From positions 434,001 through 498,000 of the forward strand of contig RXJR01000001.1 in NCBI GenBank assembly GCA_003963305.1: a stretch of 64,000 nt of DNA, read 5' to 3'. Shown here in pieces: positions 3,402-13,781 of this stretch. The first letter of the stretch is position 1, and the number at the start of each line of letters is the position of its first letter. A program made the position numbers and the translations under genes. The notes beneath the pieces were generated by a model. It saw only the letters and a list, made by a program, of their open reading frames with translations, had not been told where the DNA came from and did no database searches. This DNA is from Candidatus Melainabacteria bacterium. GTDB taxonomy: Bacteria > Cyanobacteriota > Vampirovibrionia > Obscuribacterales > Obscuribacteraceae.

Positions 3402-3478
<77 letters not shown>

Positions 3479-3696: not shown

Positions 3697-5244
3697 TTAC
3701 ACATCGTCAAAACCATCAAAGGCGTCTCGAACTATTTCTTCTAACTCAGCCAGCTCTTCTTCTTTTAACGCAGCGAATTCTCTTTTCCTTCTATTGTTCG
3801 GAAGCGTGCCACCATTTCTGTGCACAAACAGCACAAACTGCTCAGCCATGAGATCTGGCATCTCAACAATGTTCATTACATCCCTTACGGCTTCGTCCCT
3901 ACGCATGAGATAGTCAATTTCTCTGGGAAGGTCCACCTCTATGGTCCGCTTCACACAGCTGTAGAGAAACTCGGCAGCCTCAGTACAATCAAAGTATCTA
4001 TAGAGGTCCGCAGTATCATTTAAAACGAGAACATTTCCTTTGGCTGTTGGTTCCCATTCAATAAACTCCAGAAGTCGAGCTGAATGAGCCTGAAGCGTCT
4101 CGCGATACTTATCTATCCAGTTCAACATAACAGATGAGACAGGGAAAAGCATTCCAGGCGGCGTGAACTGTCGATCTGACAAGGTGTGATGAATTATGCA
4201 TCGGTGAAGTCTTCCGTTCCCGTCAGCAAATGGATGAACGTACACAAATCCAAAAGCTGTAGCGGCGGCTTGAAGAACCGGATCTAAATTGCCTTCCTTC
4301 ATGAGGATATTCGTTTTGATTAGTGAACTCGTCAGATCCGCAAGATCATCCGGTTTTGCGCCGATGAACTCGGGAAGCGGCTCACCATCAGGAGTGTGTT
4401 CGCCGAGGAAAACATTATTGGTACGCAACCCACCTTGAACAAAGCGGTTGTCTTCAATGAGAACTCCATGAAGACGAATTATTTCTTCAACTGACAAAGG
4501 GTTTTTACCCGCTTGCATGACAGCTCGGCCCCATCGTTCGATTCGATTCCGAGGCGGACGCTCTCCCTCTATTTGAAAACTGGCTTGACTGTCTGCCAGC
4601 AGTAAAAAACTTGCAGCGCGAGAAATAACCCCTTTGCTTACGTGACCGATGATTGTGAGAGCGGATTTTGAAAGGTCACTTTCAACATAGGTCATCAGCG
4701 TTGGCGTCTTTCTGATGATCGGACAAAAGCTGGCAGTGCCTAAGAGATTATCACGCACTTTATGCCGACGCGATAATGTGCCACTAGATTTGGTGAAATA
4801 CTTGTCGGTATCCAGCAAGTCGACTGATGTGACATTAGGTGCATCAGGGACTGCAAGCATAGTTCCAGTAAGCAATTCATAGAGGTACCAGGCGCGACGC
4901 GTCAGCGTACTATTTGGGGCTGATAGCACGTATTGCTTAATTACTTCCGCAGGAAGGGAAAGGAACACACGCTTTAGAACCAGCAGATCGATTTTTTCGT
5001 GCCGCATTGCGAAATTTAAGTGCGCCTGAACAGTGGGCTCAAGCTCGTACCGCTTGCTGTAGATTTTCCAACCGCGATCTTGTCGTATATGTCCTTTTAT
5101 ATTTTGCTCGGAAATACAACTTAGTTCTCGAACAGGAGTCCGAACATTAAAGGCATGAACGAGCGCGGATAGTCCGGCAAGGCTGGTGCCCGTTGGCAAA
5201 GACGATTCTTGAAACAGAGCCGGTTTCTGACTAGGCAAGTCCAT
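3697..5244 (-). CDS. class II Fic-domain protein (probable AMP transferase)
   Basis: A 515-aa protein with a canonical Fic motif HPFADGNGR (residues about 337-345), whose His normally carries out AMPylation of target hydroxyls. About 110 residues before it is SFQIEG, matching the [S/T]xxxE[G/N] inhibitory helix of class II Fic proteins, which block their own ATP site. The first about 200 residues match the N-terminal part common to large Fic proteins (RRAWYLYE and RRHKVRDNLLGT). The ATG at 5244 is chosen because a TTG at 5307 would place direct repeats inside the gene; from the ATG all six repeats lie upstream. No separate antitoxin gene is adjacent, as expected for a self-inhibited Fic. Target unknown. 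Confidence 0.85.
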   Translation of the reverse strand: MDLPSQKPALFQESSLPTGTSLAGLSALVHAFNVRTPVRELSCISEQNIKGHIRQDRGWKIYSKRYELEPTVQAHLNFAMRHEKIDLLVLKRVFLSLPAEVIKQYVLSAPNSTLTRRAWYLYELLTGTMLAVPDAPNVTSVDLLDTDKYFTKSSGTLSRRHKVRDNLLGTASFCPIIRKTPTLMTYVESDLSKSALTIIGHVSKGVISRAASFLLLADSQASFQIEGERPPRNRIERWGRAVMQAGKNPLSVEEIIRLHGVLIEDNRFVQGGLRTNNVFLGEHTPDGEPLPEFIGAKPDDLADLTSSLIKTNILMKEGNLDPVLQAAATAFGFVYVHPFADGNGRLHRCIIHHTLSDRQFTPPGMLFPVSSVMLNWIDKYRETLQAHSARLLEFIEWEPTAKGNVLVLNDTADLYRYFDCTEAAEFLYSCVKRTIEVDLPREIDYLMRRDEAVRDVMNIVEMPDLMAEQFVLFVHRNGGTLPNNRRKREFAALKEEELAELEEIVRDAFDGFDDV

Positions 5245-5248
5245 TTGT

Positions 5249-5388
5249 GGTTCCAAATCGTTCTTTTTAGGTTCCAAATGAGTGTATTTTACCCATAGAG
5301 GACCCAAATTACTTGAATATTATAATCATGGCTCCAAAATTTTTAGCCTCGCGACATTGGGTTCAGAATAATCAGACAGGTTCCAAAT
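5249..5388 (-). promoter_or_regulatory. six phased direct repeats upstream of the Fic gene
   Basis: On the minus strand the 10-mer ATTTGGAACC is exact at 5249-5258, 5270-5279 and 5379-5388. Copies with two mismatches lie at 5300-5309, 5330-5339 and 5360-5369. Start-to-start spacings are 21, 30, 30, 30 and 19 bp. All copies face the gene, and the nearest is 4 bases from the ATG. A TATAAT on the same strand lies inside the array near 5319-5326 without a good -35. The layout fits an operator for a cooperative regulator or autoregulation. Confidence 0.6.
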
Positions 5389-8047: not shown

Positions 8048-9193
8048 ATGTTTTTCAGAATCCATAGCCTCATCGGCACCTCTGCAGCTCTTTATATCCT
8101 GCTGGTAACCGTAAGCGGTATCATCCTGCTGTTTGACGATGAAATAGGAGAATTGACTTGTGCAACTCCAAAACTTGCACCGCAAGAACTAACGGCTTCG
8201 ATCGACGACATCGTCCATGATGTCGAACAAAACTTTCCTGGTAACAGCGTTACAGGAATATCCTTTCTCCCTGACAAGACCCAACCAATCGATGTTTTCG
8301 CAACCAAGGACGGAAACAATTGGATTCATTGCCTCGCAGATCCGTACACGGGTAAAAGCCTGGGTCTAAAAAAAGAAAACGCCTGGATAGAGATTGTGCG
8401 TGACCTTCATTTCAATTTGATGCTTGGAAGCAATGGCAGAAAAATCAACGCAGCAGGAGCTGCATGCATACTGATGCTGGTTGCGACCGGCATCGCGGTG
8501 ATACTTCCAAACTGGAACAACGTTTGGAGGCAACCAGGGAAAAAACAATCAGCAAATCCCGCGTCTCGAAAGTGGACTTCTCATAGCCTGCTTGGGACTT
8601 TTGTTTTTCCCTTTTTAATTATGCAAAGCATCAGCGGTATTTATTTTTGCTTTCCGACTTTCTTACAAAAAAGTCTAAATGCAATTGCCCCCGTTTCGAG
8701 CCAGAAGCCAACTAGCAAGACCGTCTCAATAGCGGCGAACAAGACAACTGTTAAGACCACGCCGCAAGTAGCACTGAACCAAAAATCAAACACTCGAATC
8801 GATCAATTGATAGCAAAAGCCAAATCGCATATAAAAACCGATTCGGCGATAGAGCGGATCGCGCTTCCGAACAAGTTCGACAACACCGTTCAAATCTGGC
8901 TTGTCAACGACGACTCCAAGGGCGAAGTTGTTGGCAAAACAAAGATATGTATGTCACCGACGACAGGCGAAGTGATTTCTCTTTATCCAGCCGAAAGTCC
9001 TGCACCGGGAGACAAAATCATTCAGTGGTTGATTAGTTTCCACAGCGGAACATTATTCGGCGAAACATCTAAATGGTCATGGTTGCTACTTGGAGCCACC
9101 TTGCCAATTCTTGCAATAACTGGAAATAGGATGGTAATGAATCGAAGGAAAATACAATCCCCGAAGACGGAAATCGCAGACAAGAGAATTTAG
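8048..9193 (+). CDS. PepSY-associated membrane protein
   Basis: A 381-aa protein with the layout of the PepSY_TM family: an N-terminal helix (MFFRIHSLIGTSAALYILLVTVSGIILLF pattern), a periplasmic PepSY-like region, a central pair of helices near residues 140 and 190, a second exported region (about 220-320) and a last helix near 345. Conserved His residues near the helices (RIHSLIG, DLHFNL, SHSLLG, FHSG) resemble those of family members linked to iron-siderophore reduction. No siderophore gene is adjacent, so the substrate is unknown. No clear Shine-Dalgarno is seen. Confidence 0.75.
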   Translation: MFFRIHSLIGTSAALYILLVTVSGIILLFDDEIGELTCATPKLAPQELTASIDDIVHDVEQNFPGNSVTGISFLPDKTQPIDVFATKDGNNWIHCLADPYTGKSLGLKKENAWIEIVRDLHFNLMLGSNGRKINAAGAACILMLVATGIAVILPNWNNVWRQPGKKQSANPASRKWTSHSLLGTFVFPFLIMQSISGIYFCFPTFLQKSLNAIAPVSSQKPTSKTVSIAANKTTVKTTPQVALNQKSNTRIDQLIAKAKSHIKTDSAIERIALPNKFDNTVQIWLVNDDSKGEVVGKTKICMSPTTGEVISLYPAESPAPGDKIIQWLISFHSGTLFGETSKWSWLLLGATLPILAITGNRMVMNRRKIQSPKTEIADKRI

Positions 9194-10519: not shown

Positions 10520-11260
10520 TTGCATATCCATAGATTTCTCCACAAAATCACACAGACCGGTTCAACAGGTGCACTTGCATTTGTTCCATTGCTAGCATTC
10601 ACATCGGCCTTAACAATGCTGGCGGCAGTCCGAGCGCATACGCCGGCAGAACCAGCGAAATCATTGCCAACGAGCAAACAGGGCTATCATAGGCGTTTCG
10701 ACGATGCACAGAAATGGGTGAAAATATTCGACGATCCTGCTCGCGATAGATGGCAGAAGCCGGAGGCTGTGATCCCAGCCCTGAACATTCATAACAACGA
10801 CCGAGTAGCAGACATCGGTGCGGGCACCGGCTACTTCTCACTGCGCATTGCCAGGGCATTTCCGAGTGTCACAGTGTATGCAGCCGATGTCGAACCTGAC
10901 ATGATCGATTACATGAAAAAGCAGACGAAAAAGGAACTGCTGCCCAACCACAAACCGTTAAAGGTGAAACCCAATGAAATTCACTTCCCACGGAAAGTGA
11001 ACTTGATCCTTGTAGTGGACACTTATCACCATATCGACGACAGAGTCAAATACTTTAGTGCACTGAAAAAGCAACTCCGCCGTAATGGAAAAATTGCGAT
11101 CATCGACTTTACCGCGGAATCTCCGGAAGGACCTCCGCTCGAACACCGCATCTCCAAAGAGAAGCTGGTGGCTGAAATGAACACGGCCGGCTTTGCAGTT
11201 TCTGAGGATATCTCGCTACTGCCGAACCAGTATTTCCTCATCTTCCAAACAAAGCCATAA
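10520..11260 (+). CDS. exported SAM-dependent methyltransferase
   Basis: A 246-aa class I methyltransferase. Motif I is VADIGAGTGYFSLRIA (about residues 95-110), followed by an acidic residue in YAADVEPDM and a post-motif LILVVDTYHHI, typical of the Methyltransf_11/25 type. Before it lies a hydrophobic segment (about 15-42, ending near VRAHTP) like a signal peptide or membrane anchor, unusual for an enzyme needing cytoplasmic SAM. If it is an uncleaved anchor, the catalytic part may face the cytoplasm. The start is a TTG without an obvious ribosome site. It is convergent with the sulfatase gene, 7 bases apart. Confidence 0.75.
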   Translation: MHIHRFLHKITQTGSTGALAFVPLLAFTSALTMLAAVRAHTPAEPAKSLPTSKQGYHRRFDDAQKWVKIFDDPARDRWQKPEAVIPALNIHNNDRVADIGAGTGYFSLRIARAFPSVTVYAADVEPDMIDYMKKQTKKELLPNHKPLKVKPNEIHFPRKVNLILVVDTYHHIDDRVKYFSALKKQLRRNGKIAIIDFTAESPEGPPLEHRISKEKLVAEMNTAGFAVSEDISLLPNQYFLIFQTKP

Positions 11261-11267
11261 CTTGGCT

Positions 11268-13781
11268 CTATTCGCTGGCTTTGTTATCACGCTGCGATTC
11301 TTGCTGGAGCAGTTTGATATCGGCTGCTGACAGCTCTGGGCGATCGAGCTTGAGTGTCAGCTTATCGAGCTTGCCGGTGAAAGCAAACGGCACCTTGTAG
11401 TCCTCATCACACACCGGAGTGCCCGTATCGGAGCCGATATCGAAGCTTTCGTCCCACTGCAAAATCAACGGAAGAGTGCCTTCCATCTTCTGCGTGCTCA
11501 CCTCTTTGCCGTCTACCTTGAGCGTCCCAGTGCCACTGCGTCCGATACCACTCATGTTATTGAAGGCAATCGTGCCGGCACCGAGCCCATCGTACTTGAA
11601 GTCAAATTCCAACTCGTGCTTACCGGGGCTGAGCGCTGCAGGACCTTCCCAGCGAACGCGTTTCAGATCAGCCAGATTCCACAGGAACACGGGCTTGCCT
11701 TTAAGGAGATAGAATCCGTAGCCGGCAAAGCGTCCACCTGAAGTGAGCAGCATGCCCTCGGCTCCCCCTTCCGGAATGTCTACGTTCGCCTTGACCGTGT
11801 AGGATGTGTTCAGCAAGACTGGCGAATCACCCTGCGGAATGCCGGTCTGAGGCTTTGTGTAGACAAACTCGCTGCGTCCCGCAGTGATATTCGGGCGGGC
11901 GGCGACAAGACGCGTGGCGCAGGTGGCATCGAGTGGAAGCACCTGGTATTTCTTAGCCTCGCTGAGGAACAAAGCCTTCAACTCTTCCAATTTTGCCTTG
12001 TTCGTGGCGGCCAGGTCATTAGATTGAGTCCAGTCCTTTGTCAGGTCATAGAGTTCCCAGGTTACATTGTTCACTGGGTCCTGGTTGACAGGTCCCGCAG
12101 TGACCCACGGCGCACGCACCACTTTAGTACTGGCGATCCAGCCGTCGTGATAAATAGCATGATCGCCCATCATCTCAAAGTATTGAGTCTTATGTCGCGA
12201 TGACGCACCTCCATTGGCCTTATCGAATGTATAAGCGAAACTGACACCTTCAATTGGCTTTTGCTTAATGCCATCGACTGTGTCTGGTGCCTGAATACCA
12301 CAGGCTTCGAGAATCGTTGGCACCACATCGATTACATGGTGAAACTGATCGCGAATCGCACCCACATCATTGATATGTCCGGGCCAGGAGACGCACATGC
12401 CTTGAGCGGTGCCGCCGTAGTGCGAGGCGATCTGCTTGGTCCATGAATATGGAGTACTGAAAGCCCAGGTCCAGCCCACTGCCATGTGATTATAAGTGCG
12501 GTCAGTACCCCAGACATCGTAGAAATGCTTGAGTTGCTCCTCAACTGGAACCATCATTCCGTTGAACATCGCCACTTCGTTTGGCGTTCCTACAAGGCTA
12601 CCCTCGGCACTGCCACCATTGTCTCCACTGACATAGATGATGAGAGTGTTATCTAGTTTGCCCATATCTTTGACAGACTGGATGACGCGTCCAATTTCAT
12701 GATCTGTGTAAGCCAAGTAAGCCGCGTAGACGTCTGCCTGACGAATAAACATCTTCTTTTCGTCAGCAGTCAGTTCGTCCCAGTTCTTCAGAAGGTCATG
12801 CGGCCATGGCGTAAGCTTTGCGTCTTGCGGAATCACACCCAATTTTTTCTGGTTTGCGAAGATCTGCTCTCGCAGTGCATTCCATCCCTTATCAAACAGA
12901 TGCAAATCACTGATCTTGCGATCCCACTCCGGTGTGGGATGATGCGGTGCATGTGTTCCACCAGGAACGTAGTAGCAGAAGAACGGCTTGCTGGGGTCGA
13001 TCTGATTGAGCTGGTTGAGCCACTGGATCGCTTCGTCGGCTTGCGCCGTCGTAAGATTCCAGCCCTTTTGCCCCTCGTAAGGCGTTATAGCCGTAGTATT
13101 GCGAAACAGGTTTGGCTGCCATTGACTGGTATCGCCACCCAGGAACCCGTAGAAGTATTCAAACCCCATGCCAGTCGGCCACAAATCGAACGGACCAATC
13201 TGACTGGCCTGGAATGTCGGTGTGTTATGCGCCTTGCCGAACCAGGAAGTCGAGAAGCCGTTATCTCTGAGAATCCGTCCAATAGACGCCTTATCCTTTG
13301 AAATAATGCTGTTGTAACCGGGGAAACCAGTTGACTGCTCCGAAACTACGCCAAAGCCGGCAGAGTGATGATTACGACCGGTAATAAACGCAGCCCTGGT
13401 CGGAGAGCAGAGCGCCGTTGAATGAAAGTTCGTGTAACGCAGACCAGTTCTTCCGATCATGTCTAGTGTCGGGGTCGGAATTACACCACCGAAAGTACTC
13501 GGGGCGCCGAAGCCAACGTCGTCAGTGAGAATAAGCAAAACGTTCGGGGCACTTTTAGGTGGTACTATGCGCGGTGCCCACCAGGCTTTAGATTGCGCGG
13601 CAGTATCTTTGATGACGCCGCCAAAGGCAGGCTCCGGAGCCGGCAGTTGCTTGCCATCGATGGTAGTTGTTGCACTGGGCGAACCAACCACTCCCGTCGT
13701 CTGTTGAGCAGATGCGAATGGAGCGCTGAGCAGAAAGCAAACAATCAAAAAGAACAGCGCTCGAAATTGAACCTGCGACAT
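11268..13781 (-). CDS. exported arylsulfatase
   Basis: An 837-aa sulfatase of the alkaline-phosphatase superfamily. A signal peptide (QFRALFFLIVCFLLSAPFASA) is followed by NVLLILTDDVGFG with the metal-binding Asp pair (about 87-88) and CSPTRA (Cys about 125), the CxPxR site whose Cys becomes formylglycine. The length and C-terminal beta region fit the large arylsulfatases that release sulfate from aryl or alkyl sulfate esters. Maturation needs a formylglycine-generating enzyme, not seen in this window. The ATG at 13781 begins the signal peptide and has GGAG upstream; starts further upstream add an implausible basic extension. Confidence 0.92.
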   Translation of the reverse strand: MSQVQFRALFFLIVCFLLSAPFASAQQTTGVVGSPSATTTIDGKQLPAPEPAFGGVIKDTAAQSKAWWAPRIVPPKSAPNVLLILTDDVGFGAPSTFGGVIPTPTLDMIGRTGLRYTNFHSTALCSPTRAAFITGRNHHSAGFGVVSEQSTGFPGYNSIISKDKASIGRILRDNGFSTSWFGKAHNTPTFQASQIGPFDLWPTGMGFEYFYGFLGGDTSQWQPNLFRNTTAITPYEGQKGWNLTTAQADEAIQWLNQLNQIDPSKPFFCYYVPGGTHAPHHPTPEWDRKISDLHLFDKGWNALREQIFANQKKLGVIPQDAKLTPWPHDLLKNWDELTADEKKMFIRQADVYAAYLAYTDHEIGRVIQSVKDMGKLDNTLIIYVSGDNGGSAEGSLVGTPNEVAMFNGMMVPVEEQLKHFYDVWGTDRTYNHMAVGWTWAFSTPYSWTKQIASHYGGTAQGMCVSWPGHINDVGAIRDQFHHVIDVVPTILEACGIQAPDTVDGIKQKPIEGVSFAYTFDKANGGASSRHKTQYFEMMGDHAIYHDGWIASTKVVRAPWVTAGPVNQDPVNNVTWELYDLTKDWTQSNDLAATNKAKLEELKALFLSEAKKYQVLPLDATCATRLVAARPNITAGRSEFVYTKPQTGIPQGDSPVLLNTSYTVKANVDIPEGGAEGMLLTSGGRFAGYGFYLLKGKPVFLWNLADLKRVRWEGPAALSPGKHELEFDFKYDGLGAGTIAFNNMSGIGRSGTGTLKVDGKEVSTQKMEGTLPLILQWDESFDIGSDTGTPVCDEDYKVPFAFTGKLDKLTLKLDRPELSAADIKLLQQESQRDNKASE

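Follow-up and report, generated by a model that had tools for sequence, protein, structure and literature searches.

The Repeat Array Upstream of the Fic Gene

How class II Fic proteins are restrained and switched on is largely unknown (PMC9755527). A locus in Candidatus Melainabacteria bacterium (GenBank assembly GCA_003963305.1, contig RXJR01000001.1, positions 434,001 to 498,000; this 64,000-nucleotide stretch is called the window) raises the question for one of them. Which protein reads the six short repeats located directly upstream of its class II Fic gene, a member of the PADLOC family PDC-S24? We propose, with a probability of about two in three, that the repeat array is an operator for the Fic protein itself, which would repress its own promoter.

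The array consists of six 10-bp copies arranged head-to-tail on the minus strand between positions 5249 and 5388, three of them exact and three with two mismatches (Table 1). The start-to-start spacings are 21, 30, 30, 30 and 19 bp. The single 10-mer alone is not rare, with six one-mismatch matches in the 64 kb compared to 4.5 expected. The clustered array reached a score of 54 compared to 26.4 in dinucleotide shuffles (z = 5.8), was equalled by none of 60 shuffles and is not due to chance. A pattern search of the 7.5-Mb genome found TGGAACC-N12-24-TGGAACC once, at the Fic locus. Six same-strand repeats with these spacings, the last copy four bases from the ATG, had been noticed in an earlier sequence-only reading, and both the coordinates and the shuffle statistics confirm that description.

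Conservation of the Array in Related Loci

The promoters of 57 family loci from several phyla were scored against their shuffles, and 134 promoters of neighboring genes served as controls. A same-strand repeat array was detected with a z of at least 2 in 41 of the 57 loci, of at least 3 in 30 and of at least 4 in 19. Among the controls, 8 of 134 reached a z of at least 2 and none reached 3 (family versus control, Mann-Whitney p = 1.8e-18). The search for conserved repeats before orthologues, suggested earlier as a check, was strongly positive. As judged from these loci, the array characterizes the PDC-S24 Fic family as a whole and is not a local peculiarity. The hosts belong to the Alpha- and Gammaproteobacteria, Bacteroidota, Balneolota, Nitrospirota, Thermodesulfobacteriota, Actinomycetota, Acidobacteriota and Campylobacterota; the relatives were taken from named loci, plasmid loci and viral-collection contigs, and bins of metagenome-assembled genomes (MAGs) may misname some hosts. 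One member from a record titled Bifidobacterium breve MAG (L056) is close to the Nitrospirota one and probably represents a misbinned contig.

Distances between adjacent copies peak at 20 bp (43 cases) and 30 bp (47 cases), followed by 50, 21 and 29 bp, and spacings of 19–21 and 29–31 bp predominate. The spacing near two or three helical turns that had been pointed out for the window is conserved across phyla. Usually, a 30-then-20-bp triplet is present twice, approximately 26 bp apart (e.g., L050 and L132). The full site is bipartite and reads roughly TGAA or TAA, 4–5 bases, TTTT and a variable end. Such sites of about 18–20 bp are arranged head-to-tail with 5–8 copies per array.

Orthologues with 72–88% identity from other genera of the window's taxonomic family possess TGGAACC-type copies near −14, −35, −65, −95, −145 and −165. 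Their upstream copies vary, and one array (L039) is degenerate. In a second clade with 52–59% identity the spacing is kept and the wording is TTTTCCACC, TTTTCGACC, TTTTCCGCC and similar. For the two upstream copies a conservation of 0.83 was calculated for the repeat cores and of 0.53 for the spacers, which argues for selection and not for mere recency. Loci that were added later, outside the method setup, showed the same 30/20 steps in three cases (L254, z = 5.5; L257, z = 4.1; L256, z = 2.0) and no significant array in two (L251 and L253). The most regular array seen belongs to L257, a viral-collection contig, in which eight copies precede the Fic start in strictly alternating 30/20-bp steps. 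No match was found in phage records. In the clade of L053–L056 and L136 the repeats run 20–35 bp into the coding sequence, so that repeat DNA encodes the conserved N-terminal residues (FS...V.FH).

Repeat Wording and the Fic Protein

The wording of the repeats tracks the phylogeny of the Fic protein rather than the host. On the well-supported Fic tree the motif class changes 9 times, compared to 34.4 times with shuffled labels; these labels were set by eye from aligned copies and some of them (e.g., L051, L052 and L229) are derived from weak arrays. Related Fic proteins in different host phyla carry one motif class. Genome G043 contains two orthologues with two wordings, TGGAACC (L035) and TTCCG (L049), which does not fit a single host regulator. 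Fic is the only gene common to the loci, and its neighbors in the family are HipA, AbiEi-like, conjugation and metabolic genes. A regulator encoded apart from fic would need shifts of specificity in step with fic. Fic is the simplest reader. The sequence-only reading had named both the Fic protein and an unknown regulator as candidates. Since the motif tracks Fic even within one genome, the former is now favored, with binding and repression as predictions.

Two residues of the Fic protein covary with the central bases of the repeat. The 18 proteins with a TC(G/C) motif all have D at position 63; the nine GGA proteins have S or G there, and those with TTC mostly T. At position 64, TCG motifs go with K (one M) and TCC motifs with S, N or A. 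In L224 a TCC motif of separate origin stands beside sisters with K64 and TCG, and residue 64 follows the TCC pattern. We hypothesize that residues 63 and 64 form a two-residue specificity code.

Overlap with the Likely Promoter

The window's taxonomic family is represented by 18 loci, and in every one of them the best TATAAT-like hexamer in the stretch before the penultimate copy is located at −37 to −49. It matches at least four of six bases in each of the 18, with a mean of 5.2/6 compared to 3.6–4.1 in stretches elsewhere. A Shine-Dalgarno-like word is absent in 16 of these loci, and the last copy takes its place. This agrees with the earlier suggestion that the last copy covers the ribosome site. 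The conserved array extends over the likely promoter and the start region of PDC-S24 Fic genes.

The Fic Protein

The Fic domain (residues 249–354) was the sole Pfam family found in the 515-amino-acid protein. The PADLOC profile of PDC-S24 (PDLC04966) matched over its full length with 579.8 bits, covering residues 21–510. The catalytic motif HxFx(D/E)GNGRxxR is present as HPFADGNGRLHR, and its core is invariant in 15 relatives. It is preceded by the class II inhibitory motif (S/T)xxxE(G/N), of which S222 and E226 are invariant. By its sequence, the enzyme was rightly called self-inhibited. The N-terminal 208 residues are conserved, and their predicted structure is confident (predicted local distance difference test, pLDDT, of 92). 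A fold search with the whole protein yielded weak matches only, to Fic structures. No other architecture containing the N-terminal domain was observed among 11,814 open reading frames of the fetched loci.

Proposed Function and Alternative Explanations

In the favored model, in which the array is the operator of the Fic protein, several Fic protomers would line up and dock along a single DNA face at the 20/30-bp steps. The N-terminal domain would do the docking, with residues 63–64 probably near the base-reading surface. Docked Fic would obstruct RNA polymerase as well as the start of translation; this repression would keep a potentially toxic adenosine monophosphate (AMP)-transferase scarce. 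With less certainty, an infection signal or invading DNA may lift the repression, and the enzyme would then arrest the cell. The released enzyme might also transfer AMP to a target.

Several observations weigh against this model. The N-terminal domain showed no significant Pfam or PDB match (best fold-search E value 0.22), and no helix-turn-helix was recognizable in the Fic protein. The covariation is confounded by phylogeny, with L224 as the only clean contrast from a separate motif origin, and columns 68, 120, 390 and 474 also score high, the latter two outside the N-terminal domain. The −35 hexamer is poorly conserved, and a generic sigma-70 −35/−10 scan of all relatives was not above shuffles; thus, the promoter was deduced from the conservation of the −10-like hexamer. 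Approximately 16 of the 57 loci, mostly on deep branches, have no clear array, perhaps because of wrong starts, decay or other operators. Finally, the array, its phasing, its promoter overlap and its diversification together with Fic can be read from the aligned sequences; DNA binding, repression and defence by Fic are all inferred steps.

The most serious competitor, although unlikely, is a restraint by the DNA itself. Array DNA would bind Fic and hold the enzyme inactive or mark the gene's DNA as self, the enzyme would be freed when the array is lost or titrated in the course of an invasion, and control of transcription would be secondary. BstA with its aba element offers a parallel: each protein clade has its own cognate array just as each BstA has its own aba, and the repeats of one clade extend into the coding start, again like aba (PMC8585504). 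Moreover, 5–8 copies are many for a simple operator. However, the conserved −10-like hexamer within the array and the fixed promoter position are explained by repression alone. An extended version, which we regard as somewhat more doubtful still, combines both ideas. Fic protomers would be inhibited on the phased repeats, so that the gene together with its promoter DNA would suffice both as a toxin-antitoxin system and as a sensor of invaders, and a new DNA-reading domain would switch its specificity through two residues.

An independent regulator, either a host protein or another mobile-element protein, is an improbable reader of the array. The lack of a recognized DNA-binding domain in Fic would speak for it, but the motif goes with the Fic tree rather than with the host, a single genome holds two wordings, no other gene is common to the loci and the genome has no second array site. 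A host regulator with a wider regulon was rejected on the ground that there is only one array in the genome. The pattern search produced matches in 29 of 50 family genomes; many of these matches were due to chance or low complexity. Eight of the sites without a neighboring long Fic match were read; four look like fic relics and four are unrelated (L247–L250). The relic arrays, from family genomes that lack a long Fic match, precede a decayed fic start or mark a missing fic gene in L243 (G003:C15) and L245 (G031:C34) and, less certainly, in L244 (G033:C27) and L246 (G039:C164). Orphan arrays of the window's type look like such relics, that is, marks of past gene loss, the latter two probably so.

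It is very improbable that the repeats act as RNA, either as an antitoxin RNA in the style of type III toxin-antitoxin systems or as a translational operator. The last copy on the ribosome site and the continuation of repeats into coding sequences would suit such an element. However, four of the six copies are upstream of the −10-like hexamer and would stay untranscribed, the spacing matches the 10-bp DNA helix and Rfam finds the transfer RNA (tRNA) alone here. Chance, low complexity or coding repetition can practically be dismissed: the spacings 21, 30, 30 and 30 can all be divided by three and an open frame extends upstream to a TTG at 5307, translating as LEP...LEP, but in-frame stops farther upstream, copy shifts of 1–2 bp in relatives and the changed wording in other clades rule out the longer reading frame that the earlier reading had wanted checked, and shuffle statistics, conservation and motif change contradict chance.

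If the Fic protein reads its own array, the conserved cognate array predicts a ligand (the array), a likely binding domain (the unnamed N-terminal fold) and specificity residues (63–64) for this family. Natural pairs of differing wording, even in one genome, would provide ready-made material for specificity swaps. The array could also serve as a DNA marker by which PDC-S24 Fic genes are detected and classified.

Genomic Neighborhood and Other Fic Families

Table 1: Coordinates of the features at the Fic locus of the window. Negative numbers give the start of a repeat copy relative to the ATG at 5244.
Feature	Position	Strand	Basis or remark
tRNA-Met (CAT), next to Fic gene	3402..3478	+	site of variable islands in relatives
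Class II Fic gene, 515 amino acids, PADLOC PDC-S24 family	3697..5244	−	Pfam and PADLOC profile matches
Fic catalytic motif HPFADGNGRLHR, residues 337–348	4201..4236	−	Pfam domain and alignment
Inhibitory motif S222-x-x-x-E226-G227	4564..4581	−	ahead of HPFADGNGRLHR
N-terminal domain, residues 1–208, candidate DNA-binding part	4621..5244	−	model pLDDT 92
Codons of residues 63–65 (S-K-R), covarying with repeat wording	5050..5058	−	alignment covariation
Repeat copy 1, exact ATTTGGAACC	5249..5258	−	−14 (to −5), Shine-Dalgarno place; 4 bases short of ATG
Repeat copy 2, exact ATTTGGAACC	5270..5279	−	−35, over predicted transcription start
Conserved −10-like hexamer TAAAAT, between copies 2 and 3	5286..5291	−	conservation in window's family
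Repeat copy 3, ATTTGGGTCC, 2 mismatches	5300..5309	−	−65, spacer between expected −35 and −10
Repeat copy 4, TTTTGGAGCC, 2 mismatches	5330..5339	−	−95
Repeat copy 5, ATTCTGAACC, 2 mismatches	5360..5369	−	−125
Repeat copy 6, exact ATTTGGAACC	5379..5388	−	−144

The Fic gene of the window is situated about 220 bp from the intact tRNA-Met gene, and no second tRNA copy was found in the window. L036 has a copy of the last 45 bp of tRNA-Met on either side of the Fic unit (8137–8181 and 11260–11304), like attachment sites, and variable islands or fragments of the tRNA occur at this tRNA-Met gene in L033, L034 and L038. The array as an attachment site of a mobile element was rejected, as it lies within the unit and also occurs at loci without a tRNA. 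HipA-family or AbiEi-like genes are found directly beside Fic orthologues in L037 (11342–12961), L038 (8393–9679), L035 (13671–14387) and L033 (8718–9806), which suggests defence or toxin islands. PDC-S24 is a single-gene candidate for phage defence, and the Fic gene may have a defence role. The neighborhood, with defence-type genes, a tRNA hotspot and plasmids, and the PADLOC label fit such a role.

Promoters of other Fic families reached a z of at least 3 in 8 of 79 cases. Three of these eight were read (L166, L149 and L078). They belong to a shorter Fic family of about 370 amino acids and carry TGCGGTGATT repeats, some inverted and some direct, ahead of the start codon. Their putative operators are palindromic and differently spaced. 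To judge from these sequences, the TGCGGTGATT repeats are a second, differently built Fic operator.

Comparison with Known Systems

AbiEi of the type IV toxin-antitoxin systems keeps a defence locus under negative autoregulation, with several copies of the protein on the DNA. It is a separate antitoxin, whereas no antitoxin gene was seen at the Fic locus. A literature search revealed no description of repeats before the PDC-S24 Fic family and no paper on PDC-S24; its coverage was incomplete and an earlier description is possible. SoFic is reported to be linked to abortive infection (PMC12249575). SoFic-type proteins are also single-gene Fic proteins, but they are shorter and match the window protein in the catalytic core only.

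Self-repression at the promoter has a precedent among class II Fic proteins in CccR (YPK_0951) from Yersinia pseudotuberculosis, which uses a C-terminal helix-turn-helix and a palindromic operator (PMC9755527). In contrast, the Fic protein of the window has no recognizable helix-turn-helix, Pfam finds the Fic domain only, and its extra conserved domain is N-terminal. Its proposed operator consists of pure same-strand direct repeats instead of a palindrome. The defence-island repressor RptR is encoded together with a set of phage-defence genes and binds direct repeats that span the −10 box of this set (PMC12255303). Similarly, the copies of the window flank the −10-like hexamer on both sides at a candidate defence locus. 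RptR, however, is a small separate 9-kDa repressor with three 9-bp repeats that have palindromic cores (PMC12255303), whereas PDC-S24 arrays comprise 5–8 non-palindromic sites at 20/30 bp, no separate repressor gene was seen and Fic is the sole shared gene. In the BstA/aba system a short DNA element at the beginning of the defence gene is cognate to the protein, and the wording of this element differs among protein variants (PMC8585504). The location at the gene start and the cognate wording of the window's array fit this description. The aba element confers self-immunity and has two terminal CCCGCC repeats, and no phased array has been described for it (PMC8585504). The PDC-S24 Fic system mixes features of CccR, RptR and BstA/aba and has the defining set of none of them.
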